A DNA stretch of 64,000 bases, from assembly GCA_947044365.1 (NCBI GenBank), contig OX345636.1:43717537-43781536 (forward strand), given 5' to 3'. Shown here in pieces: positions 1,976-64,000 of the stretch. Under the pieces are notes generated by a model, which worked only from the letters and a program-made list of their open reading frames with translations, was not told the DNA's origin and did not search any database. The stretch comes from Petrosia ficiformis. Lineage: Eukaryota; Porifera; Demospongiae; Haplosclerida; Petrosiidae. Every line of letters starts with the position of its first letter. Within the stretch, counting starts at the first letter, position 1. Made by a program: the position numbers and the translations under genes.

Positions 1976-4900
1976 CTACACATTTAACTGAATTCCCAGT
2001 TTATCTCTGACTGACTCTTGCATGGATTTCTTGATCTTGTTAGCTGCATCGACATATGGACCACGTATTTCATAAAAAGCATTGAAGAATTTCGTGCAAT
2101 ATTCTTCAATCTCTTCTAGTTTGTCTTTGAATACAAAACCAGATAAGAAACAGTTAATAATATTATCACTGGTAGGATTTGTCTGAACATCACGTGTTAT
2201 TATACCAGCTTCTAATAGTTCATCAGCAACAGTTTTCAATGAACCAGTCTTAAATAATCGAGTGAGTTTAGCATGATTCTTCTCCATTACTAGTTCAATA
2301 CATTTTACAACTTGACTAATATCAACATGAGATCTATCAATGCCTGTGTAAATAAATTACTTAATATATAAATTGTATATAACTATAACTACATATTATC
2401 TATAATGTTACAGTACAGCCAACTACACTGTAACTGGGCTGAAGTGAAGCTAAACCAAGTTCAAATACAGAGTTGGCTGCACACTTACAATGCACTCAAG
2501 AGGGTATATGTAGTAATTGATTACCTAATGATTGAAATGTTTCTGGACATTATTTAGGCAGATTAGATTAAGGTTTGAATGCTAGGCAAGTTAACCTAAT
2601 TATGAAAACCACAGAGCTTATGTGAGGCTTTATAATACCATATAGCCTTAAATATTCACGAGTTAAATTTTCGTATTTTGACGATATTCAACTATTTTGT
2701 GATAAAAGTTTTGCGTTCACCATAAATGCTCACATGTGGTCGGCTTGACCATTATTTCCTGAATACATTTACCATGGTCTGTCAGTTTTCACGAAAAATG
2801 TGAAATGTATAGCTCACAAAAATTTAGGGCTGTATGGTAAAAGCTGTCTACAGTTTCCATAAAACTGGCCTCATGTGATTTACGTTGAGCTCATGAGTGC
2901 TTTGTAGTTTCGAAAACATAGTAACAATGTTTCTATGAGTCCATGTAGTATAGAGCATTCCAGTAAGTGAGGATCCATGATATTCCATGGGTTAATAAAG
3001 CATTTTGATATCCTTAGTAGAGGTGTATAACTAGATCTAGACTATAGCAACTAATTGATGTGATATTATAACACATGGAAGTGTACTGTTGCTCACAATA
3101 CAGATTATGCAGTATATACAATTAGTACAGTACACAAAAATCTTATGTAAATGAATAATAATAGTACTAACCTGTATGATTTGTTGTATTACTATCCGGT
3201 TCTTGATCCCCAGTAGACTCTTAAGTGTTGAAGAATAAGTTGATTTTAACTGATGATAATAATGAATTACATACCTGTAGTGGATGTTTCAAGGAATCTA
3301 CTGATATATATTTTTCTTGTATTACAATCTATTCCAGTTAGTGTTACTGGATGTCTCAAACGTTCCTCAGGATCACAGGATAGTTTAGCCCATACAGTAA
3401 TCAGACAAGATGGAGGAATGGGAAGATCATTTGATCCAAATAGATCAGCATCTCTTTTCATAAGCTGTTTTATAGGAATTATAATTATGTATAGCATAAT
3501 AGACTAGTGTTGTTTTAGTTTCATTTTTGAGATGCTGTTTTAGTTATGAAATTTCCTAATTTCAATGATGTTTTAGTAATAGTTAACTAATATTTTCAAT
3601 TATATTTTAGTTCTAGTTAACTAATAGTTTTCATAGTACTGTTTCAGTTAACTAAATTATAAATGCAAATACTAATATGTCGGTTTGAATTTTGACCTAC
3701 AGTACAATGAGAAATTATACTGAAATTAAAACTGTACATCCATTTACACTGCTTCTTAGTGTAATTATAAGTACATTAGTAGTTAACCAAAAATGCATTG
3801 CAAGTACATTTAGTTAACCAAAACATCCATTACAAGTATATTAGTTATAGTTCTATAACTAAAAGGCCATCAATAATATATTTTAGTTATAGTTAAAAAC
3901 TAAAATAGAAAAGGTTATACTAAAATAGATTTAGTATTAGTTTTAGTTAACTAAAACAACACTAATATAGACTATACGCTAATATAATAATAGTTATACA
4001 AAATAATCCATGTAATATCAGCTGATAAATAATAATATGGAGAACTAGATCAGTAACAATATTCATCATGACATGTAATGCTTTCAAACATTCATTATTT
4101 ACTGTGAGAGGTTCAATATGTGGTTCAATATTCCATCCTTGACATATGTGTGACTCCTGGAGAAGTAGTTCAATATATCCATTCTTACTGTCTATGAATG
4201 AGAATCTAATTATCTGATCTTCAATAGCGGTGGGGTGTTTAGCTGATATGAACTAAAGAAAAGAGATAATTATACAGTTATTCAGGGTGTGGTTCTCCGG
4301 CTCCCCCCTCCAGTAGTAGATGAAACCATGGCAAACATATGGTCTCATGTAGCCAGACATAACCTACTTCCTTCGTAGTAGGTTGAGTCTGGCTGTGTTA
4401 GACTAGGCACCATATTAGTTACCTCTAAGAAAACTTTTATTTTCTGCACCACCATAAACATCATCAGCCATTTGTTACTTCCTCTCCTTTCATAATAAAT
4501 TCTACCAGTGTATGTATTATCAGGTACACCAGAATCATTAGGAACTTGTACTATAGAATATAGAAGTATTTAATGCTTCATTATGTAACAATATTTGAGA
4601 TAGAGTGATATGTTTGTGTTTCACTATCAGTATCACTACTAGGATCATTACCCTTTTCAACTTTGTCAGTTGATTGAATATCAGCTGATAATAATAATAC
4701 AAATATCATTGAAACATTGCTAATAATTAAATATACTATTTATATCCTAACCATGTCCAGATGAGGATGGTGTTTTATCAACAGTATCGCTACTAGGATG
4801 ATCTTCAGTATTGTCAGTTGATGGAACATCGACTAATAATAATTAATAGTAAAGCATTCATAATATACTATTAATATCCTAACCACGTCCAGATGAGGGT

Positions 4901-7900
4901 GGTGTATTATCACCAGTATTAATAGGTTGCTCTTCAGTATTGTCAGTTGACAGAACATCAACTAATAATAATCAATAAAAAGCATTAATAATATACTGTG
5001 ATGCATGTCATGAAATTCTGACCAAAGAGATTGCAGGAAAGGCATCACCTGCCAGTGCTTTAAATCATGTAAATAAATGCACGTGTGCATAATAAATTTT
5101 TTATAAGTCAATATACATTAAAATACTTATACCACCCTTTAGTACAATACATGTTTTATTGTGGTACTCTGATGAGGCCAATAAATATCTTGATTACATA
5201 ATGCACTCGCTTCACTCATGCATTATGTAATCTCGACTTTTATTGACACGCCATCATGCTGCATTAAATGCTTTAATACAGCAAAACGATCTCTCCACAG
5301 TCACCAGAACTGCTCGTCATCTTCACACTTTTTTTCACATGGCTTGTAGAGGTGTGGCAGTTCTGAGTGTGCATGCGTATAACCACGTGTCCATAATCGT
5401 GATAGTAGTTTTTAGCTATCGCTATCGTTATAGTAACTCTGATGACGACGATAATCGCACTATCGCCCAGCCCTAATTAAAACATGTATTGCACACACTG
5501 TAAAGGTGCTATAACTAATACTTAATATACTAACCATGTTCAGATGAGGGTGGTGTTTTCTCATCAGTATAGCTACTAGGATGCTCTTCAGTATTGTCAG
5601 TTGACGGAACATTGACTAATAATAATTATAATAAACATTAGAATAGTATTAATAATATACTATTAATAAAATTGATGGAGAAACAGAGAGAGTGAAATCA
5701 TAAAATTAATTTATTATTCCTCACTTTCATCAATATCAAATGAAGCTTTGTCACAAAATACATCATTATTAGTACTGTAAATATCTTGAAACCTGCGATC
5801 AACTACATAATAATACATTGTGTACATACATTATTATTATTCAGTGTATTGAATACAAAATATTCTTTACATACACTCATATAGAAAATCCAGAGAGGGG
5901 TAAGGATACTTCATTTTAATCTCATTATCTGAACCAACACTGGGGCTTTCATCATCTGAGAATAAAAAGAACTTATTTAATTATCACAATGATATGAAAT
6001 GATTGATTTACCATTTTCATGTGTTTCAAAAACAATTTTGTTATCATATTCAGTGTGTGTTGATGGCATATCTTCAATATCATAGTGGAAAGTAGTTGTG
6101 TCTTCATGAACTGAAAATAATTATTATTTAATAAGTGATTGTGTATAATACTAATACTAACCACTTCCAGAATCTGATTCTGTATGTGTTTCATTATCGC
6201 TAGTAGTATTGGTGTGATCATTTGTATGTGTTTCATTATCGCTAGTAGTATTGGTGTGATCATTTGTATGTGTTTCATTATCACTAGTAGTATTGGTCTG
6301 ATTATTTGTATGTGTTTCATCATCACTTGGTGGATCATCACTTGAAGTAGAAGTGTCATCTAAACTATCATCACTGAATGTCTTCCCGATGCCAACCAAA
6401 CAAAATTTCTGACGTGTTATCGTACCATATTGATTATTGATATTGAACTTCCCACCTTTTACTAGCTGAAACTTGTATGGTGGAGCTGATTCATCTATCT
6501 GTGCTATCATAAAACTGAGATATTCAAACTGTTCTTTACTTTTCAATAGTACACAATGTTGTATTTCTAACATTACAGGTTGAAGAAGCTCGGCAGCAAA
6601 TGAGATTGCATAGGTAGCACTAACGAGCTGTGTGTCTTGTGGGAATTGAAACATACCACCAACTAAAGCCTTTACAGCTACTTCACATGTTTCTGATTGA
6701 TGGAGTGTTCCTTGTTGGAACTGCATCTTTAAACCAAACTGCTCCCAATCAAATACTTGGCATTTACTTCCTTGTATAAGAAACTGTTTCTGTGCAGCCA
6801 CATGAACACTAGAAAGACGATCTGTAAGACATATAATTATATAAATTATGATATATGGTAGCTGCCCCTATAATTGCTTTCAGTGTGGTGTCATCATTCG
6901 ATAATTTCTCATACCTGAAACTATTATAGTTATTAGTATGAATGAGGAATACATTTTAGCTAAAACAGCTATTGTTTACGTAAACTACAAGTATTGTCAA
7001 TCAGTTTTCTTCCTAGTGTCATCATAACCAGCCCCACCTACTCCAAATGAACCACTTTGTTTATAGTGGGAGGGGCCGGTGCTTGAGACTACTTTCTTCC
7101 TGCTGGTGTGTAGACCTCGAGCATTGTTCTATTATGTAACATGGCCATTTGACCAAACTCCCTGGAATGATGCAACTTAACTATGTGTGTTCTCAAGTGT
7201 GACATAATAACATATATTATATAGAGTCAACCCCATGGAAAGCGAGAATGCATGGCCCTGCAGGCCATAAAAACACTTAATTTGAATTGTTGCATGAATA
7301 TTATTAATAGCATAATTATATTACCACAACAAAAAAATGTCATCAATAGAATTGTATTCTATTTGTAAAATGTTGAGTGGGTTTATCAAAGGAACGGCCA
7401 GTGCTATATACAAATCAGTTGTATTATATCCCTGTTGCTTCTTAATGTGCTGGAAAAATCAAATAATAAGTTTTGATTGTGCGGTTAAATAAGGAAGCAA
7501 AAAACCACATTCACCCACTCAACATTACACAAATGAAAGGCTATATCTGATATAGAGTAACCTTGCCTTCAGCATATAGCTCTTGATCTCAGTTAAAGTA
7601 AATCAGATACAACCCTCCTAGAGGTGTTATAACAAATACGTGTTCCAAAGTTTGTACTAACCAGTAAGATGTACCAGATAATCAACCTGGACTTCCACAT
7701 CTTTGTATGCTTTGGTCTCTTCAAAGCATTGAAATTTTTGTACTTTGGGAGATTCTGAATCAATCATATTTTGTTTTTCCTCCTGTAACTCTCTTCGAAG
7801 AGCAGCAATTTGTTTGTTTTCTAATAATTTTAAAAATTATAACATGATGTAGCTAAACTATATCACTAACCATTCTCTATTTCTGTTATTACTTCTTCTT

Positions 7901-10900
7901 TCTTTCTCAACTCAGTCTGAAACTCACAAACAACTTCACTCCAAAAACATTTCAGTTCTTTGATAATAATAAAATTTAATTATTATACTATAATTATAAT
8001 GCAGATTATAGAACAACCTTTTTGTAAATCACGTCTCATTTCTCTGATTTCGAAACCCAACTCATGTAGTTCCTTCACTTCACTTTCTACATAACTACCT
8101 TTAATATCTTCCAGTGGTTGATATTCTGAAAATGATAAAATTATTATAGTTATAATTCTACATAGGTGTATGATATCATTATTAGTTAGTCATTTGTAAC
8201 TCACCACTGTGTGTCAATTCTTCAAGCTCACTATTCTCAGGTATTGCTATTCTGTAAACCTCTTCTTCAAAATTATCTAAACAATATAATATATAATACA
8301 TATGTACACACATGTATGTATGTCTGTTGTCAATGATATACCAGATAGATGAATATTCTCTGTTACATGTCTGATCTGTTTTCGTGATTCCTTTATTTCT
8401 TGAAGTTGATGTTGAGATACTACAGAGATTATGGAGATATAGCTATAGCACCTTTATATATTATTATCTTTTTGTTTTGTTTTGTGGACAGACTTAAATA
8501 TTAGCTTTCATTAACTATCTTGTCTTGTCCTGTATGCTTTATTTGCATCAAATTTTCATTAAAAAAAATATATATCATGTTATAATGAACCAAATGAATA
8601 TAGCAACTTATCAGTGGCGTAGCTAGGAGATTATCAGAGGGAGCAGTAATTAGGAGCGCAAAACACACTGAAATTTTATTTAGCTGATTTGATATTCCTA
8701 GAAGCTGTAATCAATCAATTAATTACGTCTTTCTGTAGTGCTGTTACTCAAATTGATAACCAAAGGAGTTATCAATCCTACTGTATACAGTACAGTTTGT
8801 CACCATTACCCACACAAACTCTCATGTGTTAATAATAGTGGATGGACAACCATAAATGGGCATGGTTGATTGAAATTGCTTGCTCTGGCAGAGATGCTGA
8901 GGCTTAAGATGAATCTGTGGCTGATGTTTGATTTAGCATTCCCCTTAGGGGAAGCAGATGCTGATCTTGCTCCCAATTGGCTATGCCACTGTAATTCAGG
9001 ACCAGTCATTAAACTTCAAAGGTTAAACAATATTACTTATGTATACAATAATCAGATTTTGGACAACATGCACTAGCATAAAGCAAATTATAATTATTTA
9101 TCATATCTCTATATCTACGTATTACTTTTCTTCCATATTTCTGCTGTCTGGTAGAGTTTTGCAATATTTGATTCAAGACATTTAACTTTCTGTTGATTGA
9201 GTTGCAGTTCATCATTCAGCTTTTGATGTTTACAGTCTGCAGCCATTTCTCTTATAGACAACTGATGCTGAGCAATTTCACAATCTAACACAAAGCATGT
9301 ATAATTATAATAATATATAATAGGTGCTTTATAGAATCATTTATTATAATAATTATACATATATGAAAATAAATTTATTATAATTATAATTGAAATTACG
9401 TACATATATTAGGGCTAGGACAATGTTTGGAAAAGTACATTTGAAGTTACGTCAGAAATGAAGATTCATAACTTCATACATGTTTTTATTAATAATTATT
9501 GCTTCTATCTTAATTGGCCTCTAAAGCTGCATTATCCAGTACTACATTTTATTGCTGTTACTGTTTCTACTCATAACTTGACTGAGAAATAGGACAGAAG
9601 CATAAAGCAACTATATAGTCTCAATGTTTCTGGAAATATTAACCATTGTACAAGTGTACATGTACAAAGAGATTAAAGTTGACATTGTAGTGAAGCTTCG
9701 AGAGGAAACATTTTGCTTGCTAAATGAATGAAGATTTGAAACATCAAACATTGTCACATCTTTATTATATCCTATTATATGTTACCATCATTATTTCCAA
9801 TGGGTTAAGGAACAATTACAGTTACAATAGTGTATTGCCATCTAGTAATCAGTTACCTTTCTTCCACTTTTCTGTTGTTTGGTTTAGTTTTGTCACATGT
9901 GATTCCAGTAGTTTAATTTTCTCTTTACTTTGTTCAAGATTATTATTCAGTAATGATAACTGTTGATGTTTGTGACTTATATCCAGCTCTTTGGCAGACA
10001 GCTTTGATTCCCAATCTAATATAAAAGCAGAATAAATAATTAATTAAATGTATTCATTTTTATAGCATACCTTGCTTTAACTTCTCCATCATATGTTGTA
10101 GTGATGTTTCGCTTGTCTTCATCTCCTTAAGAGTCTTGTCTTTTCCCCACAAGTCCAAACGAACTTGTAATAGCTCTCCTTCTTTTCTCTGTTCCTGCTT
10201 CTTCATATTCTCTAGCTGTTTGTTAAGTTCTTGAATATTCAGAGATAATATGCCATATTTTTTTTGGAAATCATTTGTTAGTTGACTAATGTATGCATCT
10301 CTGTTATCAGCAATAACCTGTACTGATAGTAACTCTGATTCAAGATCAGTACTTCTCCTCCTCTCTCTTATCAACTCCAAACTCTGCCTCCTTATCTCCA
10401 TCTCATTGTCATGGAGTTTCTTTCCAGCATCCTTCTGTAACATTTGGAGTTCCTGTTGAGCCACTTGAAGTTGTTTCTAGAAAATTCATTACAGTTATAA
10501 TCATTATCTCTCAGTATATATAGTTACTAGTAATATAAAATAAACTAACTTGTTGATGTAGTCTATCATATGAAAATTGATCAAATACCTTTTTCTCCAT
10601 TATAACCTGTGTCGCCTGAAACAATTAACACAATAATTTATTGACAAAATATTGATCACTGGTTTAATACTTGATGTGGTATAGAAGATGATGATTTGAT
10701 TGAATCAATCAAATCAGCCACAAGTACTCCCTCCTGTAGTCTATCATCAACAATATGATGAAGTAAACTTGTCTGAATCCCATCCTTGTTTTTCATTAGT
10801 TGTTCTATATTCCAGACATGTTTCACAGACCACACATCTTTAATATATTCTGAGATATAATAATAATAATAATGATATTCAGTATTAGAGTGAGATGTAA

Positions 10901-13900
10901 TGTTATTAGTCTAGTTCTAAGATATGAGACACTGGATTACTAATACTAGATACAAACTAAAAACAGATGAAAGGTATACAACTAACAAAATCAAATGAAA
11001 ATGAATGCATTCTGAATCCAGAACCATCACTACAATTGTGATTGGGAAACTAGTCTGGCATTACCAACCATTTTGTACACAAGGAAGTGTTCTGGGGACA
11101 AGTGCATATCAGGCTTTTACAACTGAGCTGGAATGTTGATAAGGGTTAGGCTACTTGGTCTGTAAGCCTGTGCCAAGTAGTGTAGAACTTCAGATCATCA
11201 GTTATTGGATAATTTAGCTTCTTATTATAATGTTCAATAATTATTATAACTCTTTTATGTAGCTACATTACAAATTGATTATGCATGATGTATTTATTTG
11301 AGTTGACATTTCGCTGTTAAAAGAAACACAACAGCAGAAATCAAAGACTCTGGTCTTTCAAGTAGGTGGTCAAAAGCACCAGGTAGGCTGGCTACATCTA
11401 CCTCTTACACTAATGACGGTAATAATTTCTCCAAAACCCATCAGGAATGCTTTTTTCTCGCACGAAATTGCAATGGGCTTGTGAGAATGCGGTTTGAGTT
11501 GGACCAAACTGATTGGTCTGGAATATTTCTGCAGCCTGTACAAGTAGCATATGCACTTGTCTCTAGACCTTTCCTACTCCAGGTGGAGTGCGGTGCCGCC
11601 AGAGTATTGGGAAACTGCACAAGAATGATTACTGACAAGAAAACAATTGCAGACATTACTTGACTGTAATAATAGTTATTATACTGAGATATGTGTGTGT
11701 GTGTGTTACAAACTTACCTAGTATATAAAAACAGTTACTGTTTTTGTGGGTTTTTAAGCGCATTATTCCAAATAAGCGGATGCTCATTACTGTTATTTTA
11801 GCTGACATTTAAGCGCTGCATATTATTATTAAAACTACAAATATGTCTTGGTTGTGTGGAAAAGCACACTAGCTGTTTGATTTCAAAGACTCATAGCTCA
11901 TATTCAAAGCTACTATATCGATCACTGCTTCTAGTTCCATTACTATGACCTTTCATGATGTTCTGCAATCTGATTGGGGCGCAGCTTTTCATGCGCCAGA
12001 AACAAACTGATGTATGTAACCAGACCCTTTCTCACAGTATGGGTCTGGCTATGCGAGACTAGTTCACAAGCACCAAAGGACACTTACCTAAAATAGAAAC
12101 ACCATGTTCACTATTGTGAGTGTGACTGAGAGCGCGATAAGCACATACCTAAATTTTAGCACATATTTTTTACCGTTTTTGTCAATAACCCGCAAATATG
12201 CTATGTGGCTTCAATCACGTGCATGAAATAAAATAGATGGAGCTAGAAAGTGATCATCATGGCAGAAAACTTAGAGCTAGCTCAATGTTATAGCAGCCAT
12301 TACTTCAATTGTACTTGATTTGAAGCTGTGATTTGACAGCAATAGCCTTTAAATAAAACGAGTTATGTTTCCAAGTAATCTTTTGCTACCAGAACTCAAA
12401 AGACAGACAGACAGAAAACCTGAAAACAGTAACTCTTCACTCTGCCTATACGGGTGAGGATTAATAGTGAGAGTTATAGAAAATAGTTAATTATGAAAGT
12501 TTGTCGAGTCATCATGTCAATTACATTTAAAGGTGTGTTTTCACAAGTACATAATGACATAATTATAGAATAGACATGTAATATTATTACTACTACACAA
12601 TAATATAAGAATCACATATTATAAACATAATTCCATACATCAATACAAATATACCAAGATAAATACATACAACACGTCATGTATGTCTCTAGTGGTAATA
12701 TAGGCACGCAGGTATACATGTGTGTGTCTATGTATGTTAATAATGATGACAGTAAGAACAGAAAATGGACTGACACTTTGTCTATATTATGAATCATTAC
12801 ACCGTAAAAGTAATAGGTTAATTTTAATCTTCAGTTGGTTACAGGAGTTTCAATGCAATTCTATTTTCCTATTTGCTGAATTGTTTTTCCTGTTAAATTA
12901 TATTTGCAAGTACTAGCTTCATTTCAACATGATCGATATTGACTAGTATATAAAGTACATGTCGTAATAAAGCATAGTAAAAAACACAATATTAATTACA
13001 AATGACATGGTTTGTGTATTACCAAGTACCAACATACTTATAGTAGTTAAAGTATTATGTTCAAGAAATGGTAGTACGAACTTTGGATTATCTCTGAGAG
13101 TGTTTCTAAGGGGCCTAAAAAGTGCTAATCCTTTGTGTTTACATTGAAGTAATAAAATTACACCTGAATATATCAAGTAAAAAGAGTATTGAAATTCCCT
13201 ATGTTTCCACTCCCTGTCCAGAAGATTATAATTATGAACTTATAATTATAATAATGATATTCATCAGTGTATAAATCCCACTAGAATGTTTGCTGCAACA
13301 TCTACTAATATCTATATATTTGTAAAATTGGTATAGTGTTACACTGTAAAAAGTAATAGGTTATTTTAACCTTCAGTTGGTTACAGGAGTTTCAATTCTA
13401 TTTTCCTCGATGCTGATTTGTTGTTAATATTTACAATTCACAGTTCATTTGATCTTGATCTATATTGACTACTATGAAGTACATGTCATAATAAGGCATA
13501 TGGTAACAAGCATATTGATATAATGTAGCTATATAATGTAGCACAGTATAGGTGTAACCTGTGGTGTATTATTAGTATTGCCATTGTAACATCTAAAGAT
13601 GTTACCATATAGCCGGAAATATTGGCGGAACAAAACATTGTCAGTTTCAAATAGAAACAGGAAAAATTAAAAGTTTATGGAGTTAATTTTGACGGTTTAT
13701 TATTAAAGTTTATGAGTGGGTAGGGTTTATTGAACATGTGTACGTATACGCACTTTCAATATGTACGACCAGCTGTATACGTAGCCATTACAAGAATGTA
13801 TCGACTCCGAGACTAGGGGATGAACTTGAGTGCAGAAGAGAAGCAGACAATCATTTTGATCGATATGCTGTAGCTGTGCTAAAACAAGGTGTTGTTGTTG

Positions 13901-16900
13901 GGCATCTACCTCGACTTCCACTAACGCGGGGCTTTACGTACGTTATGGCACTGCTGGACCTTCTTGTTGACTTCCGTGAGCTCTTTTGCAGATGGAAGAG
14001 TGGTTCTCCAGGCAGTATTGTTTCTCTCACTCTACTCTTCAACATGCTGACGATCACGTGTGGTTTCGTGTCGTATTTTCTAATTTTATGGATTTAATAT
14101 TGACAAATTTAAGTTTACACTGCCAAACAGCCAAAGGTTTTTCTCCGCTAATATTTCTGGCTATATGATAATTGCTCATTCCAGAGTAAGTATGTACATA
14201 AATTTGTACTCAAATAACATGTGCTTTACTCCACAGGTATTTGAGAGTCAGCACATGTACATCATTACTATGGATTTCATTGTACTGTTTTGTTACCATT
14301 CTTTATTATGGCATGTACTTTATATACTAGTCAATATAGATCAATATAAAAAGAAATAAATTGCTACTTGTAAACATTAATCGCCTGGCAGAACAAGCAA
14401 GGAGCATTGATTTTTACTGTGTCAGAAGAAAATGAAACTCATGTAACCAAATGATGGCTAAAATAACCCATTCATTTTTACAGTGATGTAGACATAACAA
14501 GTGGTGTATTGTTATCATTCCATTCTAACATCTTGGAAAACAACAGATGTTACTTACTCATTTCAGAGCAATTATATAGTATGTTTATGTACATAAATTT
14601 GTATTTATAATAGTAAATAACATCTGATGTACTCCACAGATATTTGAGAAATTAGTACATGTACATAGTCACTACAGGCTTTATATTATGTGATACCATT
14701 ATTAAGATATGTACTTAATAGTTACAGATCAACATCAAAAAAAAAAAATTATTACTTGTAAACACTACCTAGTAAAAAAAAAATCACTATTGACCCTGTT
14801 ATTGAAACTGATGTAACCAAATGAGGGTTAAAATAACCCATTATCAGTGAGCTATTGCATTATTATCTTGTACATCAATCTAGATTGTCATATAGCTTGT
14901 ATGTCATAGACTGTACACATGTGAACATGATAATGATCACTAATAATATTACATTATATTAATTATCATACCTAATTCAATGATCATTGTAACATTAGAT
15001 TTAGTGACTGCTTGAGCTGTATCATCAGATTGATTATATTTATTGCAACCTCCAGTCACAACAATCCAAAATCTTTCTTTTGATATATAGTATGTTGACA
15101 TGGAGTGGTAAAATCGATTAGTGACTGAATCAGGAAGATCTATCTAAAGAATTAACATGCTTATAATGCATTATAATAATTATTATTAGTATAAGAAAGA
15201 GTATGTTTCAGTTAATTATTAGAAATGTAATGATAACAACTTTAACTCATATTTGTAATATACCAATATTTACAACATTAATATTAATTTTAATGATAAC
15301 AAAACTGATACCAATATAAATAAATGTCATGTGATGTACCTTGTACCACATAAAACTGGAAAGATTCATTATCCAGCAATCGTTTAGTATTTGATTATCC
15401 TTATCCAGCCCTCCCAATACCACCAAATGAGACATCATTTGTTGAGTTGATGATATAGTATTGATGACAGTACTAGCATGATGATTCCTTGACTTTGGCC
15501 ATTTCAATGCAGTATTGGATGATTTGACTACTTTGTGAAAATCCTATAGTATTAGTAATACAACATGGGTTTATTATTAATAATTTTATAAAGATAAGAA
15601 TAAAACAGTCAAATATTATGAAACATTGAAGAAATGTGATATACATATGGGTTATGTTCAGAGATGATAATAATTACAACTTAGGAATATGAAACTACAG
15701 GTATTTAAAATTAATGATAGTGCGTTCATTGTAATGAACAAAAAGAATGAAGAGTACAATCTAAAAATTGATTGCTTATTTTTAAGTTTTCATTAAAAAA
15801 TGTCAGTATTTCAATTGTTGCTAACAATGAGTGACCAATACAAATCAAATCTTGTGTTGTACATAACCCTATTAGCATTTGTAGTCTTGATATCATTCAT
15901 TTACACTATACTGGAATATTATATATGCTAAAGTGTAGTATAAAGTATATATTCTCACTACTTTTTCACGCTAGTAAATTATCCAGCCATGAATTCATTA
16001 CATAATTGTAAGTGAAGAGATAAATCAGAACAATCATTTGGCTCATTAACTATTACATAGTGTGGGAGGCTTTGTGAGCACCCATAGAAGCAAAGGTATA
16101 ACTCATATAAACAAACAAACATCAAGAGTATATTCTCACATTCACTAACAGACAGAACAGGTACAGAAGGAAAATCATATAATTGCGTATGATACTTTTT
16201 AACACTGATGAAATTAGTTAAAACAACAAATCAGTTTTTAAGAGTGTACATGTTAAGTATCTTATTATGATATTAAAATGAAACCAGAGGATTAGAACTA
16301 AAGAGAATATAATATAAGAGATCAAGAGTAATAAAAACAATAGTCTATAGACCAGAAAAGAAAAAAATACAGCTATGTAGAAATGTAGAATCTGAACTCA
16401 ACAACTCACTATTGTATTCTGAGAGAATGATAACAGAAATATATCATTAAGACGATGGAATCCAGTCTCATTAATTGTAAACCCTCCAAACATTACGCCT
16501 ATATTACCAGGAATCATGTTGATAGTGAAATAGGCACATGGTGGTGGACGATTGCCTGATATAATAGGTACTTTCCATTGACCTGAAGAAAATACATGAT
16601 ATCATTATGATGTAATACATAATGTGAGTCAAGTAATACCTGGTGATGAATTGACACACATAGTATGTATTTCATTTGTGAGGCAACGATTTCGGATGTT
16701 AGGATGTGAAGTATACTTGGAACCAGTATGAGTAGTGAATGGTGTAGGTCCAAACCCTCCGATAACTAGCAAATTATCTTCTGCATTTATATCGATGGTT
16801 ATTATTCCACAGCCATGTTTTCTCATTGGACCATTATCAGGAGAACTGTTAATAATTTCTCTCCATTCATTAGTAAGAGTGTTGAGTTCAAATAAATCAT

Positions 16901-17273
16901 TATGAAAACAGTGAAGAGTTTTACAGCTTCCACCAAAATACACAATGTTGTTTCTTACTTTGGTACAAGCATAGTGTATCACTCCTGCAGGTGGAGTAGC
17001 TGTAGTAGATTTGCTCTCCCACTGCAATGCAGGCAAATGAAATATATCAACAGATGACGTAAACTTCTTCTTCTTATCATCATAATGTGTCATAGGAAGG
17101 TCCTCCTGATTTCCTCCCCAGCAATATAATCTGCCACTATTGACCACAGTGGAGTGGTAAGCTCTCCATTTCATTTCGTATTGACCTGATAATAAACAAT
17201 CAATACATGATTATATAATTATTGTATATATAATTATATATATATATATATATATATCATAATTATATATATA

Positions 17274-17367
<94 letters not shown>

Positions 17368-17544
17368 CTAATATAAATACATAAAGATTATTAGTACACA
17401 TACAACCAGTAGTTGTTGTATTTCTTGTTTAAAAGATTATGAATAACTTATTTATCTGAGTTTGCTTTCATGTAACAAGAAAAGTAAAGATTTGATATAA
17501 TAATATTATATAATTATTATTATAATTCACTCACCAGTAGCCAT
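1976..17544 (-). CDS. Kelch / coiled-coil / ZU5 / CARD-like multidomain protein (28 exons, 1,559 aa model)
   Basis: Exons, 5' to 3': 17535-17544, 16640-17185, 16410-16582, 15340-15543, 14972-15143, 10671-10849, 10550-10615, 10071-10476, 9857-10015, 9126-9284, 8342-8419, 8205-8276, 8018-8125, 7871-7957, 7662-7820, 6162-6821, 6012-6110, 5875-5955, 5725-5802, 5535-5615, 4884-4961, 4752-4832, 4625-4684, 4423-4550, 4103-4252, 3275-3464, 3172-3219, 1976-2343. All junctions are GT-AG, phases match throughout, and the sum is 4,680 nt. Order of parts: six kelch blades (about residues 1-369), coiled coil (about 370-859), ZU5 (about 865-1005), acidic Ser/Thr linker built from duplicated exons, a beta-rich segment (about 1266-1421) and a helical C-terminus with a CARD-like pattern. 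No signal peptide or membrane helix is seen, so it is probably a cytosolic scaffold or adaptor. In UNC5 and PIDD, ZU5 precedes a death fold; that analogy is inference. The 4.1-kb intron 5 is the weakest join; the kelch half could be a separate gene. Not recognised as a named gene. Confidence 0.8.
2636..2839. mobile_element. MITE of about 204 bp in intron 27 of the kelch gene
   Basis: Imperfect terminal inverted repeats of about 27 bp: left TACCATATAGCCTTAAA, right the reverse complement of TACCATACAGCCCTAAA. There is no coding capacity. Superfamily not assigned. Confidence 0.6.
3507..3962. mobile_element. 456-bp MITE with TA target duplication, in intron 25
   Basis: Ends GTGTTGTTTTAGTT and AACTAAAACAACAC are exact inverted repeats, each flanked by TA (3505-3506 and 3963-3964), as for Tc1/mariner-type MITEs. 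The interior consists of repeated TTAGTTAACTA-like palindromic motifs. The intron around it splices a phase-0 junction of the kelch gene. Confidence 0.8.
4338..4408. repeat. Short foldback repeat in intron 24
   Basis: Inverted arms around GTAGCCAGAC and GTCTGGCTGTG with an inner ACCTAC/GTAGGT pair. Similar CCAGAC...GTCTGG fragments occur at 12010-12060, so it is a dispersed repeat remnant. Confidence 0.5.
4625..6383 (-). other. Ser/Thr/Asp-rich linker with duplicated exons and a coding minisatellite
   Basis: After ZU5, exon 16 carries a 14-residue repeat (SDNETHTNDHTNTT) in three copies plus partials. Exons 20, 21 and 22 (81, 78 and 81 nt) are tandem duplicates encoding variants of DVPSTDNTEEHPSS; exon 23 is a diverged fourth. 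All are phase 1-1, so the linker length can change without frameshift. Exon 19 has a choice: a GTGAGG donor at 5724 continues the frame, or read-through ends at TAA 5714-5716, giving a short isoform without the C-terminal domains. Confidence 0.75.
6181..6325 (-). repeat. 42-bp minisatellite inside ZU5 exon 16
   Basis: Near-identical 42-bp units at 6181-6222, 6223-6264 and 6265-6306 with a partial fourth. The unit is a multiple of three, so copy-number change adds or removes 14 residues without frameshift. Confidence 0.9.
6384..6821 (-). other. ZU5 domain segment in exon 16
   Basis: The 5' two thirds of exon 16 encode a beta-rich block of about 140 residues. It has FGLKMQFQQGTL, then VAVKALVGGMFQFP, LVSATYAISFA, LLQPVMLEIQHC and later FCLVGIGKT. 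This spacing matches ZU5 domains of ankyrins, UNC5 and PIDD, in which a hydrophobic strand, a PVxLxIxHC strand and a closing strand recur. Assignment is by pattern only. Confidence 0.7.
7662..10849 (-). other. Coiled-coil-coding exons 6-15, including a duplicated 159-nt exon
   Basis: Exons rich in Glu, Lys, Gln and Leu with heptad spacing, for example KQLQVAQQELQMLQKD and REMRRDLQK. Exons 9 (9857-10015) and 10 (9126-9284) are both exactly 159 nt, both phase 1-1, and encode alignable sequence (KLNQTTEKWKK versus KLYQTAEIWKK), so they arose by tandem exon duplication. Almost every exon from 8 on is phase 1-1 and can be duplicated or skipped without a frameshift. This region probably mediates self-association. 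Confidence 0.8.
8612..8991. mobile_element. hAT-like MITE in intron 10
   Basis: Ends CAGTGGCGTAGCTAG and the reverse complement of CAGTGGCATAGCCAA form an inverted pair; this terminus is typical of hAT elements. No 8-bp target duplication could be confirmed (flanks differ). The small ORFs at 8806-9076 lie inside it and are not genes. Confidence 0.6.
11600..12480. other. Intronic region of intron 5, no gene seen
   Basis: Part of the 4.1-kb intron 5 of the kelch gene. It contains a GTGTGT run near 11695, AAACAGTTACTG-type sequence at about 11729 and a CTGAAAACAGTAACTC match at 12420 that may be ends of a degraded element. The overlapping ORFs at 11441-11663 on both strands show no recognisable domain. 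Confidence 0.4.
12793..14856. mobile_element. Nested MITE cluster in intron 5
   Basis: Two left-type ends (12793-12851 and 13338-13396, with TAATAGGTTA and CAGTTGGTTACAGGAGTTTC) and two right-type ends in inverse orientation (14437-14500 and 14800-14856, with TGTAACCAAATGA and AAAATAACCCATT) bracket one another. This indicates one element inserted inside, or duplicated around, a related one. The innermost part holds the separate HIRAN-bearing element at 13608-14166. Confidence 0.6.
13608..14166. mobile_element. Small DNA element carrying a captured HIRAN-like fragment
   Basis: Inverted ends ATATAGCCGGAAATATT (left) and, reverse-complemented, ATATAGCCAGAAATATT (right) continue for about 22 bp. 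The interior plus-strand frame 13738-14097 encodes GDELECRREADNHFDRYAVA followed by VLKQGVVVGHLPR. This matches the HIRAN pattern of a start strand, a Glu, an NxxDxxAVAV core and a GHLPR end. No transposase is present, and downstream the frame becomes non-descript, so it is probably a gene fragment carried by a nonautonomous element. Confidence 0.65.
14972..17185 (-). other. Kelch-propeller-coding exons 2-5
   Basis: Four exons encode six repeats with the kelch hallmark of hydrophobic residues, a Gly-Gly pair, then Tyr/Trp spacing: GRLYCWGG, NIVYFGGS, NLLVIGGFG, IGVMFGGFT, HLVVLGGLD and FWIVVTGG. Each is followed by a strand such as DLFELNTLTNEW. Exon 1 adds only Met-Ala-Thr and the first base of a Gly codon at 17535-17544, ending in a good GTGAGT donor. 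Kelch propellers bind protein partners; the ligand here is unknown. Confidence 0.88.
17217..17365. repeat. (TA)n microsatellite in intron 1 of the kelch gene
   Basis: Long interrupted TA dinucleotide tract with a central CATAATTATA interruption; no other content. Confidence 0.9.
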
Positions 17545-18032: not shown

Positions 18033-19650
18033 GGGCGCATCTCCAAATTGGATTTTGTACGCTTAACGTCACAGTATAGTGCCTGCACTCATAAATGTCC
18101 ATACCATTGTACAATTATATAATATGCTATAACTTTACAATTCATTATGCTACAGTTATGAAAATTTGTAACATGATTATACAGACAGATATCTACACTT
18201 GTAATGATTCTTAGTTGCTATGGTGATGACCTTTGACCTTGACAACTAAAACAGCCAAAAAATTAAATTTTTTAAATTATCTAATGTAATTTTAACCCAA
18301 TGACTATCAAATTTATGTGATTAATAGTCTAAAGTGCCAACTTTATTTTCAAAGAAAATGTTTTGGATATTGTACATGTATGACTTTTTATTAAGATAAA
18401 TATTCGTTTTGGTAAGTATTAAACAAAGTAAATTTTAAGAAAAACTAAAGGGTTTTAAAATCTAAAATAATTCTTATAAAGATACTCTAATATCTCAAAG
18501 AAATTACAGTCTCAAACATAAAAAATGAGGCTGTGGTAATTTACTCAACTTTGCCAAAAACACGGCGATGGGACTTGTATAATTTTACTGCATTTTCAAC
18601 ATCATTTCCACCAGATTTACCATCTCTATATGCTTGCATGTATTCCCTACATTTTCTGAAGTACTTTCTTATAGTGTCCAACCTCACTGACTCTAGAGCA
18701 GGTATCAGAACTTTATCAAGTCCTTGAAACGTATAATCACAGTGTGAACGAGAGTAACGTTTTGCCTCCCCCCATACCTCTTCGGTTTGGTTGCTAACCC
18801 ACTCATGATACTTCTGAAGGGCATCATCACTGGAGAAGATTGTAGAGGAATCACCTTCATCACTGCTAACATCACTAGATTCATCTATCTCTGTGTTGAT
18901 TTTAATTGAAAAGGAATCATCAAGACATGGTGATTCAGGCAGTATTGTTAAATTAGTATCACTAGATGATAGAGGCTGTGTTGTAACATTAGTACCGTTG
19001 GTTGATGAAGGTTCTTGCACTGTAGGAGAAGATGGATGAGTGTCCTCCTGCACAATATTTTCACTAGCTGAAGTGGAAGATTCTCCAGACAATTTAAGTG
19101 TCTTGGCTGCCCTCATACGTTCCATTTTACTTTTCAGCTTTCCTTTCCGTGACCATGGGCCTTTGCTGGAACCTTCCATGATGTCAAAATACTCACAGAT
19201 TGCTTTCTTTATCAGTAGCTCATTAAATATGCACGTCATGAATTATTCATAAAAACAAAAAAAAATTACTGACGTGCGCAGTGATATACTGATGAATAAA
19301 GCAATCTGATAGGTCGATATACATCAGCTCTTAACTGCAGTATAATACAACATATTGCAATAATACGGTAGTCTCTTATTATAGGAACAAAGACCACCAC
19401 GCTGTAAAAAAAAAAATTCCTAATTGTTAAAATTTTTTTAGTTATTCGCGTCAAACATTTATGAGTGCGGGCACTATAAAACTACTGGAAGACCATCCCA
19501 CCCCCCTCCTCTTAACATCATGAATGAATACTCCAGTGTATCAAACTAACTTGTGCTTCCAATGTTTAGCGTCACGCACAACCAACCCCCCCACCCCCTC
19601 CGCGTCACTATGACATTAAGCGTATAAATTTCAGTTTGGAGATGCCCCCT
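18033..19650. mobile_element. DNA transposon of about 1.6 kb with TA flanks and inverted ends
   Basis: Left end GGGCGCATCTCCAAATTGG and right end, reverse-complemented, AGGGGGCATCTCCAAACTG. Both continue into TACGCTTAA-GTCA, and a second inverted pair lies inside (18075-18100 and 19460-19483, around TGCACTCATAAA). Both ends abut TA (18031-18032 and 19651-19652). It encloses the 232-aa ORF below. The size and missing catalytic core indicate an internally deleted, nonautonomous copy. Confidence 0.75.
18541..19239 (-). pseudogene. DDE transposase remnant: N-terminus plus C-terminal tail, catalytic core missing
   Basis: Single-exon ORF of 232 aa. The first 30 or so residues are basic (KGPWSRKGKLKSKMERMRAA), the middle is Ser/Thr/Asp-rich low complexity, and the last 80 residues (NQTEEVWGEAKRYSRSHC, then TIRKYFRKCREYMQAYRDGK and YKSHRRVF) match the tail that follows the LNPIERVW motif of DDE_3-superfamily transposases common in sponges and cnidarians. 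The third acidic residue region is kept (NQTEEVW), but the two upstream Asp blocks are absent. Located inside the inverted-repeat element 18033-19650. An alternative is a domesticated short protein, since the frame is still open. Confidence 0.65.
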
Positions 19651-47200: not shown

Positions 47201-48815
47201 TCAAGCAGAGAAAATTTAAGAGATCAAAAATATTTCATAGCGGGGGTATTACTCCTTTAGATTGGGAAATCGTCACTGTTAAATACATTTTGCTGCTGCT
47301 TCTGTCCGATGTCCTTGAAATTTTAGTATTTCACTAGTTTTAATATGGTCTGAAAAAACTAAATGCATGACATTTTTTTAGGACAAAAATTTCCCAATCA
47401 TTTTTTTGTCCCTGTTTCAGTCTATGATGGACTTATTGTATTGATGCTAGTCTTTTATTGCAGTGGGGAGTAAAATCACAAAGTACTTGGTACTGACTGT
47501 AGTGCTTCTGGAATTGTCCCACCTTACCTTACTGGTATCAAGAGTACATGTATATAATAAAAAGGGAGAGTATCACACGTATCACACGTATCACACTTAT
47601 AGCACAACCCTGCGAAAAGTACTTGAGTTGAGAAGATGGTGAAAAGTACGTGCTAGACCACAAGGCGGTGCACAAAGCCCAAGCATGTTTAATAATCACG
47701 TGAATAGTGATACGCTTACATATTGGAGCTTGAGAAAGATATTCTATACGAAGACAGTGATTTTGAGATCAACAGTGACGATGAAGCTGACTTGGAGCAG
47801 TCCGAGCTACCTTACCTTACAAAGTGAATCCAACTATTCCTCAGATCGCCAGATTCCTTTGCAACTTTCTGGAGAGATGCCACAAATCCTGAAGTTTTAA
47901 GAACCTTCGACAGTGTAAGATCACCTTCCCTAACGGTAGAACCAGCAACACGACTTGATAAATGAGGCAAACACTGCACAGATGGGATCCATGATGGTGT
48001 GGTTGCTGCATCATCCATCTTTGTTTACAATGTGGTCACATATTGCCTCAACGCCTACTTCACACGTGATGATTACGTCGTGAATATTATTATAAATTTC
48101 ATGTACTTTTCACTGGGTTGTGCTACATGCTTATACGGAAGTGCGATACTCTCCCTCTCTTTCTATTATATACTCTTGTTGGTATTTAAGTACTTTCTTA
48201 TGAATGAAGTATAATTGCACTTGTAACTAAGTTAACAATTAAATTACTGCATGTAGATATAGATGTACTTAAAGTCCTTTGCATGTAAAGTGCTTTGCCC
48301 CATGTCTGACCATGAATCACTTATTACTTACCATTTCCCAATTCCCAAGCAACTTGGTAACCTTTCTTCATAGTGTAATCAATAAGAAGTTCAGCATTAC
48401 TGGAATCCCATTCTCCATTTGAAGTACGCAATAGTTGATTTAACCCAAATATTAACGTCCAGCCAACCTCATTAGTAAAGCGATTAATACCATCCCATTG
48501 TGAAGTGCTCATAGTAAGATTACTACGTCCGATATTTTCACCATCTGGATCAAATATTATGAAGTCCCCAGAAGTTCCACCCACCCTCAGACGTACTGGT
48601 TGTAGAGCTTTTGCCATATTGATCATCCTGTCTGCATTGACAGTAATCCATCTATGTTTTATGACACTAGCATCTATCGTCAGAGACAGAAAGTCTTCAT
48701 CAACGATATGAACATGTTCATGAAGATTCATTGACATTAAATACTGCTTTCCATCTGATTCTTCCAGGAGGATCAAAGTACCAAACAAAATTAGTGTGGT
48801 CAAAGACAGAACCAT
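35220..48815 (-). CDS. HPSE: Heparanase, GH79 endo-beta-glucuronidase (475 aa)
   Basis: Eight exons, 5' to 3': 48332-48815, 46282-46444, 42663-42710, 41777-41977, 40620-40728, 38699-38814, 35935-36078, 35220-35382; total 1,428 nt, all GT-AG and phase-consistent. Signal peptide at 1-22 (MVLSLTTLILFGTLILLEES). The proton donor is Glu162 in WELGNEPD, split between exons 1 and 2; the nucleophile is Glu278 in GDLWIGETSSTYGGG. VDEDFLSLTIDAS and LRVGGTSGDFIIFDP match the N-terminal part of animal heparanase, and the C-terminal beta domain ends KKANATACTT. The family cleaves heparan sulfate in the extracellular matrix and lysosome. The protein is shorter than human HPSE (543 aa), and I see no clear equivalent of the excised linker, so maturation may differ. 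Introns are packed with MITEs. Heparanase 2 is an alternative in name, but both catalytic Glu are kept. Confidence 0.94.
36190..37030. other. Heparanase intron 6, repeat-derived sequence without a gene
   Basis: Begins ATTACCCTCACCGCG and AGGGTACGGTAACC, a foldback-like end, followed by GT-rich microsatellite (36222-36250). ORF 36221-36418 has no domain. Degraded repeat sequence. Confidence 0.4.
37349..37919. mobile_element. piggyBac-type nonautonomous element, 571 bp, in heparanase intron 6
   Basis: Ends CCCTTAGAAGACTGA and TCAGTCTTCTAAGGG are exact inverted repeats, each flanked by TTAA (37345-37348 and 37920-37923), the piggyBac target. The internal ORFs (37333-37560 and 37518-37916) show no transposase motif I can recognise, though the interior is less AT-rich than the intron and may derive from a former coding region. 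Confidence 0.88.
37968..38084. repeat. Perfect palindrome, 53-bp arms
   Basis: Arms 37968-38020 and 38032-38084 are exactly complementary (starting GTGGTTACAGTTTAGGCATG) with an 11-nt loop. Confidence 0.95.
38138..38210. repeat. Perfect palindrome, 36-bp arms
   Basis: Arms 38138-38173 and 38175-38210 are exactly complementary (starting ACTGTTTATACAGTGG) with a 1-nt centre. It lies only 53 bp from the previous palindrome but is unrelated in sequence. Confidence 0.95.
38420..38575. repeat. Dispersed repeat, copy of 22530-22665
   Basis: Shares CAGTTTCAATTTACTAG and CAATGTCCTGTATGACTGG in order with the ABHD11-intron copy. A GAAA microsatellite follows at 38637-38655. Confidence 0.65.
39205..39618 (+). 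mobile_element. CCCTATGATTGCTTT repeat family, copy 2, with internal hairpin
   Basis: Diverged full-length copy in heparanase intron 5. It carries a private palindrome at 39375-39441 (TTTCTGCTGCTCTAGTTTG and its inverse around GAGTGGCGCTC). Confidence 0.75.
39751..40247. mobile_element. MITE with 46-bp inverted ends in heparanase intron 5
   Basis: Left AAAGTCCGTTTGCGTTGAG and right reverse complement AAAGTCCGTTCGCGTTGAG, continuing through TTGGGACTTTTCTCATTAAA to the ATATTCAT end. No ORF. Confidence 0.85.
41533..42400. repeat. Two copies of the TAATTACTGTCTCACTACTG repeat and a diverged family-1 fragment
   Basis: Copies at 41533-41640 and 42225-42400 flank exon 4 of heparanase; further copies are at 45670-45845 and 46925-47145. 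Ends TATGTCAATAAAA(T)GTCA and TTTTTATTGACATA are inverted, so a small MITE of about 200 bp. Between them, 42035-42120 is a diverged CCTATGATTGCTTTAC fragment. Confidence 0.65.
42790..43440. mobile_element. Two tandem foldback elements (long hairpins)
   Basis: Unit A at 42790-43080 and unit B at 43150-43440 are each long inverted repeats: GTAGGGA(T/C)GTCAAAACCC...CCAACCTTGTTTGCATG on one arm and the inverse on the other, centred on ACAAAGAGCTGTACTTATG in B. A and B share about 100 bp of arm. Mirrored copies are at 50085-50709. Confidence 0.85.
42838..43910 (+). repeat. Left arm of a large inverted repeat
   Basis: Sequence nearly identical to the reverse complement of 49620-50709. Shared marks in order: CAGCATGTAAACAAGGTTGG, the two palindromic units, ATTCAGTATTCCAATGG and the 5' part of a family-1 element. 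The main difference is an indel of about 28 bp next to CATTGTATAATAATATTG. The arm lies in heparanase intron 2. Confidence 0.9.
43737..44209 (+). mobile_element. CCCTATGATTGCTTT repeat family, copy 3 (full length)
   Basis: Runs from GTGTATATAGAGAAAAAA to GGGCCATAAAAA. Its first half lies in the left arm of the large inverted repeat; its second half is unique to this side. Confidence 0.85.
44267..44862. repeat. Tandem duplication, unit of about 300 bp
   Basis: Two direct copies (about 44267-44594 and 44596-44862) share TGCGCATGCGTAATTAAA, GTAGTCGTTGAGACTGTCTT, AGATATCATCTCGATACTTG and the end CTTTAGCCATCTAGAC. The first also carries an AAATAAAAAT-rich insert. Minus-strand reading gives a similar peptide in both (PVAFIVKFWSTSIEMIS), but no splice context supports a gene. 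Confidence 0.8.
46453..46913 (+). mobile_element. CCCTATGATTGCTTT repeat family, copy 4, abutting heparanase exon 2
   Basis: Its left end begins 8 bp upstream (on the minus strand) of the acceptor of heparanase exon 2 (CAG at 46445-46447). Read on the minus strand, the element end TTTTTTTCTCTATATACAC supplies the pyrimidine tract. Confidence 0.85.
47563..48157. mobile_element. MITE of about 595 bp in heparanase intron 1
   Basis: Inverted ends AGGGAGAGTATCACAC and reverse complement AGGGAGAGTATCGCAC. The interior is less AT-rich and carries ORFs (47812-48018 minus, 47999-48214 plus) without recognisable domains. Confidence 0.7.
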
Positions 48816-49030
48816 GGCACCGAGCAGGTCAAGAAGGATTGCAGCTTATCATAGGGTGAAACCACAATTAAGTGAATTAACGACCAGTGTTGCCAGATGG
48901 GAGGAGTAGCACTATGCTATTTTTATTTCAAAATTATGCTATCTTATCTAAAATTATGCTGAAACGTAAAAATTGAGAATTTCCATGAAAATTTTAGATT
49001 TTTTTGGTTACTTCTGCTTCAAAAAAACAA

Positions 49031-59880: not shown

Positions 59881-60253
59881 AAAATATATAAAACTCCCCT
59901 AAAAAGGGGAATGGGCCACACCTGGAGATACTGCAATACCAGGGCAACCCTTGGAATGGGGGAAGCAAGCTTCACACTCCATCCCGAAATACAAAAATTG
60001 GGTTAATAGCTTGAGGACACATGGTCCTCATTCGAGCTATTAAACTCGAAAGAACAGTATACCTTCATCCGTCAGGTCTGCAGACAAGTCTACAAAACCC
60101 GTTGGGAGCCCTTCTCTGACAGAAGCCAGAGGTCACCCGCGAGGATGGGGGCCTCGTAGAACATAAGAGATGATTCTACGGTTTGTGCGGAGTGTTTCAA
60201 CCATGAGTAAGGTTGATCACTCCAGAATTTGAAGGCGCTCAAGAGAGCTTGAT
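59881..60253 (-). other. 3' UTR of the non-LTR retrotransposon
   Basis: Higher-GC sequence downstream of the ORF, containing hairpins (CCCCTAAAAAGGGG at 59896-59909; AATAGCTTGAGGAC and CTCGAGCTATT-like partners around 60005-60040). The composition switch at about 59880 marks the 3' junction; the genomic side is TA-rich, so a tail cannot be told apart. Confidence 0.65.
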
Positions 60254-63157: not shown

Positions 63158-64000
63158 CTTGTTCCAATGACACAGGAGGAGTTAGGGCAATATAACCCGT
63201 TTCTCCATCCAGGCCACTGGTGTGATCAGAGAAAATGTTCCGCTCCAGACCCAGGACAGCATGATCTGTTTCCTGGCTATTGAGCCTGACGGCATCACCC
63301 GTTTCAGAGCTCAGAGGAGGTGTCTTGGTGGTAGTAACAGACACCAATAGTCCATTAGTAGGACTAAGGGAGACATCCCTCACATAATGTGAGTTGCCAG
63401 CTGGTCCATGGTGCAGGGCTAAGTGGACACCATAACTCTGGCGGTCTCTATTAGGGGAGCTATGTTCACTAAGAGAATCATTGTGTACAGTAGTTACCAT
63501 CTCATTACTGATCCGGCTAGACTGAGACACTTCTCTAGCGATTACCAGCTCATTACTGAGTCGGCAAGACTGGACCTCACCATCAGAAGGATCCCCCCCA
63601 GTGTTTGTCAGCTCATTGCTGAGCAGACTAGACTGAAGGATTTCACCAGTGGTTACCAACTCATCACTGAGCCGATTAGACTGGCTATCCCCCTGACGGG
63701 TTTCGGTAACAGGCTGTAGAACTCCATCCTGGGAATATCCGGCCTCATCAAATGGAGAACCCATTCTCTGAGCATTCCCATTGCACCTCAACACATCCTG
63801 GGAATATCCGGCCTCATTGAGCGGAAGATCCGTTCTCTGAGCATTCCCATTGCACCTCAACACATCCTGGGAATATCCGGCCTCATCGAATGGAGAATCC
63901 ATTCTCTGAGCATTCCCATTACACTTCCAGCGATCCTTAGGGAACTTCGATCTGAAGTTCTGGATCTGGCGCACAGATAGGTTAAGCGCTCTGGCTATTG
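62994..64000 (-). CDS. Upstream overlapping ORF of the retrotransposon (partial, runs off the window)
   Basis: Open from the right window edge to a stop at 62994-62996; it overlaps the polyprotein ORF by 164 nt in a different frame (+1 relative shift). At the edge it reads ARALNLSVRQIQNFRSKF, a helix-turn-helix or homeodomain-like pattern. Then come three copies of a repeat (CNGNAQRMDSPFDEAGYSQD), a set of RLSNELVTT-type repeats and four ETGxAV motifs, the last (ETGNAVLLSE) at about 63090-63119, inside the overlap. The frame therefore looks genuinely used down to about 63090. Either the element makes a fusion by frameshifting, or one indel near 63070-63120 has split a single long ORF. Confidence 0.72.
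   Translation of the reverse strand, partial: IARALNLSVRQIQNFRSKFPKDRWKCNGNAQRMDSPFDEAGYSQDVLRCNGNAQRTDLPLNEAGYSQDVLRCNGNAQRMGSPFDEAGYSQDGVLQPVTETRQGDSQSNRLSDELVTTGEILQSSLLSNELTNTGGDPSDGEVQSCRLSNELVIAREVSQSSRISNEMVTTVHNDSLSEHSSPNRDRQSYGVHLALHHGPAGNSHYVRDVSLSPTNGLLVSVTTTKTPPLSSETGDAVRLNSQETDHAVLGLERNIFSDHTSGLDGETGYIALTPPVSLEQDVSPSVPKSVPEEETGNAVLLSETHEQTHSVVPATSLCKWTTEFFCWSQHSPTV
63725..63930 (-). repeat. Coding tandem repeat in the upstream retrotransposon ORF
   Basis: Three units of 69-72 bp with TGGGAATATCCGGCCTCAT and CTCTGAGCATTCCCATTGCA in the same order; in-frame, encoding NAQRMDSPFDEAGYSQD and variants. Confidence 0.9.

Follow-up and report, generated by a model that had tools for sequence, protein, structure and literature searches.

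Proteins that combine a sensor, a ZU5 domain and a CARD are best known from a few vertebrate inflammasome proteins. In NLRP1 and CARD8, a FIIND (ZU5-UPA) precedes the CARD; PIDD1 is arranged as LRR-ZU5-ZU5-UPA-Death, and UNC5B and the ankyrins as ZU5-UPA-Death. Rat NLRP1 (rNLRP1) is cut at F968/S969 and requires H942 (PMC8081665). CARD8 is cut at SF/S, which requires H252 and H270 but depends little on the P2 Ser, and Ser, Thr or Cys are able to start such self-cleavage reactions (PMC3210808). Among invertebrates, TRADD-N is found with FIIND or UPA-Zu5, and autoproteolysis has been proposed for the FIIND forms (PMC8195603); NACHT-Zu5 is described from early-diverging animals (PMC12909245). Here we describe a gene of the sponge Petrosia ficiformis in which a kelch propeller, a coiled coil, a ZU5 domain and a CARD-like domain are joined in this order. 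It lies on the minus strand of a 64,000-nucleotide stretch (hereafter the window; contig OX345636.1, positions 43,717,537 to 43,781,536) of the genome assembly odPetFici3.1 (GCA_947044365.1; 191,215,263 bases), which was also used for all own-genome searches. Judged from sequence, the gene belongs to a large P. ficiformis family, each module of which occurs in at least 150 places, and this striking family varies the known plan of sensor, ZU5 and death fold.

By sequence and comparison, the window gene is real and intact. Rebuilt from the sequence, it has 28 exons from the ATG at 17544 to the stop at 1976, and its coding sequence of 4680 nt, a multiple of three, encodes 1559 amino acids (aa) with a single terminal stop. 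All 27 introns are GT-AG and their phases agree, and the exon reassembly thereby bears out the initial annotation, which had proposed 28 exons in one frame with matched phases and a stop. The median intron is 74 nt, and intron 5 (10850..14971; 4122 nt) is by far the longest. Exon 1 (17535..17544), of 10 nt (ATGGCTACTG), carries the start codon. It is followed by exon 2 (16640..17185) with the first kelch repeats (aa 4-185), by the kelch exons 3 (16410..16582) and 4 (15340..15543), these three placed by assembly and Pfam, and by exon 5 (14972..15143) with the last kelch repeat and the donor G|GTATGATAATT (the bar marks the splice site). The kelch assignment is given by Pfam: PF24681 matches at 3.2e-33 (115.3 bits against a cut-off of 50), PF13418, PF13964 and PF01344 also score above their own cut-offs in this region, and six GG doublets are present. 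For the coiled coil, the heptad pattern compared with shuffles gives z values of 4.7 in exons 7-10 and 4.2 in exons 11-15; the same test gives 2.0 in kelch, 1.9 in the linker and -1.3 in ZU5.

The ZU5 and CARD domains had been called by pattern. In Pfam searches with the window copy both stay below the cut-off (0.16 and 0.079, respectively). For ZU5, the call is nevertheless confirmed by predicted structure: the AlphaFold2 (AF2) model of exon 16 (6162..6821; ZU5 at aa 861 to about 1007, then the start of a Ser/Thr/Asp-rich linker) has a predicted local distance difference test score (pLDDT) of 91.8, and its PDB matches are the ZU5 domains of ankyrin, NLRP1, CARD8, ZO-1 and UNC5b, which is strong support for a ZU5 fold in the model. 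Exon 28 (1976..2343), encoding the C-terminal helical domain (aa 1438-1559) and the stop, was modeled with pLDDT 94.6, and the 11 best realigned PDB matches are CARDs. This moderately supports a CARD-like death fold, so that the predicted structure favors the earlier call while the Pfam score does not, and it is less firm than ZU5. When exon 28, ZU5 and exons 24-26 were compared as profiles with PDB sequences, nothing credible was returned (3, 0 and 1 matches, respectively, with E of 0.26 or worse). Neither NACHT nor LRR was found by Pfam in exons 1-6, 16 and 24-28 (E <= 10) or in exons 7-15 and 17-23 (E <= 1), and the gene was not assigned to the NOD-like receptors for this reason.

The same modules recur throughout the genome. 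For each module, the best 150 candidates were scored out of 260 (exon 2), 384 (exon 16) and 272 (exon 28) first-look candidates, giving at least 150, 151 and 150 matches, respectively, of which 150 places each were used; some listed places of each module contain stop codons. Within 20 kb downstream of the 150 kelch places, the next listed same-strand module is ZU5 in 87, kelch in 26 and exon 28 in 10, with none in 27. Within 10 kb downstream of the 150 ZU5 places, it is exon 28 in 93, kelch in 9 and ZU5 in 8 (none in 40), and exon 28 is followed within 20 kb by kelch as the next listed module in 41 places, by a further exon 28 in 11 and by ZU5 in 5 (none in 93). Complete consecutive kelch–ZU5–exon-28 triads number at least 58. 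When strand is ignored, only two opposite-strand kelch neighbors are added, and no opposite-strand ZU5 or exon 28. Many of the listed places are clustered, at 5.1-8.3 Mb of chromosome 3 and, on chromosome 1, at about 54-63 Mb and below 6 Mb, and none of them is a second copy of the window gene. Furthermore, the modules of the family recombine: a gene at 5.25-5.26 Mb of chromosome 3 has identities to the window gene of 73% (kelch exon 2), 53% (ZU5) and 96% (exon 28), and another at 6.59-6.61 Mb has 73, 83, and 55%, respectively. The Pfam ZU5 search of the genome gave only two matches, neither at the listed family places, and therefore Pfam counts would miss the family. Exon-sized profiles found 618 and 98 protein relatives; the C-terminal half of the full-length protein gave no relatives at E <= 0.001, probably from length-limited candidates.

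The joins that seemed doubtful were compared with 20 paralog stretches upstream of ZU5 exons. Kelch, exon 6 (10671..10849; aa 369-428, which connect the kelch and coiled-coil parts), coiled coil and ZU5 follow in order on one strand in six of them (L027, L030, L035, L036, L039, and L040), in L035 without the middle kelch part. In L029 and L031, the last kelch exon is the sole kelch match, followed by exon 6, coiled coil and ZU5; in L033, L041, and L045, kelch, exon 6 and ZU5 match but the coiled coil does not; L038 and L044 have a diverged kelch, with exon 5 aligned in part and no exon-6 match; and the remaining seven (L028, L032, L034, L037, L042, L043, and L046) have no kelch match. In 10 of the 20 stretches, exon 6 is present together with an exon 5 that aligns through to its end, and all 10 keep the G|GTAT donor, the AG|AATAT acceptor and the same phase 1; the intron between them measures 0.46-0.70 kb in six of these stretches and 1.6-5.6 kb in the other four. 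This acceptor is found in 12 of the 13 loci with an exon-6 match, the exception being L028. Intron 5, 4.1 kb long and pointed out as the weakest join in the initial annotation, is therefore supported by splice signals conserved in 10 paralogs. Upstream of exon 2, the mini-exon ATGGCTACTG|GTGAG is identical in five of nine paralogs and near-identical in L036; a clear 10-nt first exon was not found there in L035, L040, and L045 (3/9). Because the weak joins are kept in paralogs and the same module order recurs genome-wide, the gene model is more than chance, and the order kelch, coiled coil, ZU5 and CARD-like domain in one gene, as first proposed, is supported by the splice signals of the 10 paralogs, the 58 same-strand triads and the predicted structures.

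Other candidate N-termini were seen upstream of diverged ZU5 copies. In L043 (2417-5651), Pfam matches COR-A at 8.3e-11 and a caspase domain at 1.8e-7, the caspase-like frame reading YAGYG where the catalytic His is expected, and L042 (1629-7087) has a Death domain (9.9e-8) and a CARD just below the cut-off (1.7e-4). GTPase-like and CARD-like frames were recognized by eye in L034 (5074-8241), for which Pfam gave no credible match. COR-A is present in at least 150 places of the genome (357 first-look candidates), and the Roc-COR expansion in P. ficiformis is very large. Roc-COR–ZU5 was considered as the main form and rejected: ZU5 is the next module in 5 of the 150 listed COR-A places, and therefore kelch is the main ZU5 partner.

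The ZU5 of the family carries a signature resembling the cleavage sites of FIIND. When structures were realigned to the model of exon 16, ranges ending at model residue 139 were obtained for the rNLRP1 FIIND chain 7crv_C and for the GAIN chains 5kvm, 7qu8, 4dlq, 6v55 and 8vti, several of the GAIN chains presumably ending at their own cut site. The ZO-1 ZU5 chain 2kxr also ends at residue 139, and the remaining FIIND and GAIN chains extend to residues 146-151. From its 143 residues and the autocleaved state of the crystal protein (PMC8081665), 7crv_C would be the cut-off ZU5 half. Model residues 139|140 correspond to F999|C1000 of the window protein (codons 6400..6405), the putative equivalent of the scissile F|S of FIIND, with residue 139 as P1. 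In an alignment of 61 members, whose relatives are 60 sequences hand-picked from 120 listed among the 618 hits, P1′ is occupied by Cys in 50 members, by Ser in 10 and by Tyr in one (Cys/Ser in 60/61), and P1 by Phe in 46, by Tyr in 12 and by another residue in three. P2 is His in 20 members, and H(F/Y)|C is found in 19. Six members have Ser-Phe-Ser; His occupies residue 115 in five of these and in none of the other 55. A Ser nucleophile and the candidate catalytic His thus come together in only 5 of the 61 members, and also in the loci L042 and L043 (2 of 14 loci). The Cys or Ser at P1′ in 60 of 61 members suggests a self-cleaving switch like those of PIDD, NLRP1 and CARD8, and the family looks built for self-cleavage.

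For the window copy itself, such a switch is less certain. Its site reads K998, F999 and C1000, a nucleophile of the fitting class, and Y975 (codon 6475..6477), at model residue 115, takes the place that by spacing would be equivalent to H942 of rNLRP1, so that F|C stands without either candidate catalytic His. Therefore, its own cleavage is uncertain and it may not cut, and with C1000 and Y975 in place of the Ser and His of rNLRP1 (S969, H942) it was not assigned to FIIND.

Selection was compared among the modules by pairwise nonsynonymous to synonymous rates (dN/dS, Nei–Gojobori method NG86, pairs with dS 0.02-1.5). The medians are 0.52 for kelch exon 2 (36 pairs of nine sequences), 0.47 for kelch aa 244-311 (36 pairs, single pairs up to 1.68), 0.86 for exon 6 (39 pairs, single pairs up to 1.55), 0.25 for ZU5 (348 pairs, 11 of its loci repeating others) and 0.44 for the CARD-like domain (359 pairs). 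All medians are below 1, a comparison that is not a test of positive selection and whose values may be biased by gene conversion. In all seven window-versus-paralog pairs given for both modules, dN/dS is higher in kelch exon 2 than in ZU5 (0.60 vs 0.10 with L039), as would be expected if a sensor varies while its gate is constrained.

The best explanation, to which we give a probability of about 0.5, is a kelch-sensing scaffold with a ZU5 gate and a CARD-like output, working as a switch like PIDD, NLRP1 and CARD8; this mechanism is inferred from fold and motif. The 1559-residue protein would probably be a cytosolic sensor-scaffold, and a cytosolic role in recognition or signaling fits the sequence. 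The N-terminal kelch propeller with its six GG repeats would bind a ligand or partner, the long coiled coil would dimerize or oligomerize, the ZU5, a fold assigned by predicted structure, would act as the gate, and the C-terminal CARD-like domain would be the output that recruits death-fold partners. The C-terminal part would be restrained by ZU5, in many members after self-cleavage with the halves staying bound, until a release or rearrangement, triggered via kelch and coiled coil, lets the CARD-like domain assemble. For the window copy, given F|C without a candidate His, a non-cleaving or slow-cleaving gate is at least as likely. A bolder version, which we regard as tentative, takes the family as sponge-expanded NLRP1/CARD8-like switches that sense by kelch and cleave themselves at F/Y|C with a Cys nucleophile; removal of the N-terminal half would then release the CARD-like output, and kelch or other N-termini (Roc-COR, caspase-like, Death) would recombine as guards. 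If this is true, sponges use a FIIND-type release mechanism in which both the sensor and the nucleophile differ.

The foremost competing explanation is a non-cleaving adaptor like UNC5 or ankyrin, in which ZU5 is an interaction or autoinhibition module of a cytoskeletal or ubiquitin-ligase scaffold without immune role. It is possible, though we consider it less likely than the kelch-sensing switch, because Cys or Ser at P1′ in nearly all members and the upstream His in five of six S-F-S members are needless for a pure scaffold, and the tandem expansion and the faster-evolving kelch suit recognition families better. It is improbable that the window copy, within this large family, is decaying and without function: stops do occur in some listed places and the candidate active-site His is absent here, but 4680 nt are open, the splice sites are intact, and the window ZU5 shows dN/dS of 0.10-0.39 against the 14 paralog loci listed. 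The weakest alternative, that two neighboring genes (kelch, exons 1-5; coiled coil-ZU5-CARD-like, exons 6-28) were wrongly joined over intron 5, could draw on the length of this intron, on the 51 of 150 listed ZU5 places where the 15 kb upstream hold no listed module (81 have kelch there) and on the other domains upstream in L034, L042, and L043, yet is very improbable in view of the donor and acceptor that 10 paralogs keep in phase 1, the short intron in six of them and the 87 same-strand kelch-to-ZU5 neighbors.

Compared with NLRP1 and CARD8, the sponge protein differs by the N-terminal kelch propeller and coiled coil, by the nucleophile, which is mostly Cys in the family, by the long Ser/Thr/Asp-rich linker after ZU5, by a UPA that is only a candidate and, in the window copy, by the lack of the catalytic His. 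It resembles PIDD1 in combining a repeat-type N-terminus with ZU5 and a death fold, and the H(F/Y)|C of 19 aligned members is akin to the HFS of PIDD (PMC3210808), but one ZU5 was found, kelch replaces LRR, a CARD-like domain replaces Death, and the nucleophile is Cys. UNC5B and the ankyrins have no kelch and end in Death rather than CARD. Mosaics in which death-fold, ZU5 and other domains are likewise expanded and mixed are reported from marine invertebrates (PMC8195603; PMC12909245); the word kelch occurs in the main text of neither paper. No description of a kelch–ZU5–CARD-like architecture was found in searches of the open-licence literature. In two other sponges, kelch-motif transcripts are down after exposure to microbial patterns (PMC6208332). 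P. ficiformis is among the sponges studied for dense microbial consortia (PMC5099237); the family would therefore be a candidate for telling symbiont from intruder, and may be an uncharacterised system of sensing and signaling. The at least 58 triads and the conserved cleavage-site signature raise the question of the age of the self-cleaving ZU5 gate, and also whether kelch propellers are able to serve as varying sensors.

The other exons, all placed by assembly, are as follows. The coiled coil begins with exons 7 (10550..10615) and 8 (10071..10476), followed by exons 9 (9857..10015) and 10 (9126..9284), two 53-aa cassettes, exon 9 being in phase 1 and its paralog counterpart being matched by the exon-10 query at 45-47%. 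Exons 11 (8342..8419), 12 (8205..8276), 13 (8018..8125), 14 (7871..7957) and 15 (7662..7820), the last ending the helical region, are matched in paralogs, and L037 has a second coiled-coil exon set. The linker continues through exons 17 (6012..6110), 18 (5875..5955) and 19 (5725..5802) into STDNTEE-type cassettes of 26-27 aa in exons 20 (5535..5615), 21 (4884..4961) and 22 (4752..4832), the latter two in a 132-nt tandem unit at 4730-4997, and a degenerate cassette in exon 23 (4625..4684). These phase-1 symmetric cassettes, both the 53-aa coiled coil (9126-10015) and STDNTEE (4625-5615), look duplicated. Exons 24 (4423..4550), 25 (4103..4252) and 26 (3275..3464) form a conserved region, the UPA candidate, and match 14, six and eight other loci, respectively, L010 among those of exon 24 having a stop. 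No Pfam or PDB match was obtained for it, and a Pfam search of the genome for UPA gave no match anywhere but was uninformative, the positive controls being equally silent. Exon 27 (3172..3219) is a short linker.

Just upstream of the gene, a 233-aa open frame lies at 18541-19242 on the minus strand, without a Pfam match. Elsewhere in the window, a full-length match to U2 small nuclear RNA (59906-60091, minus strand; Rfam 101 bits) follows an open reverse-transcriptase frame of 975 aa (60254-63181, minus strand; RVT_1 3.6e-36) at a distance of 162 nt downstream, both inside a block of 50% GC. Possibly this is an element of the Utopia type, a lineage that targets U2 genes (PMC4640811), although the flanks of Utopia begin within U2 and the U2 match here is complete. 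Further frames encode a glycosyl hydrolase family 79 N-terminal domain of heparanase type (48327-48845, minus strand; PF03662, 7.7e-16) and a fibronectin type III domain (56436-56882, plus strand; 5.3e-13).

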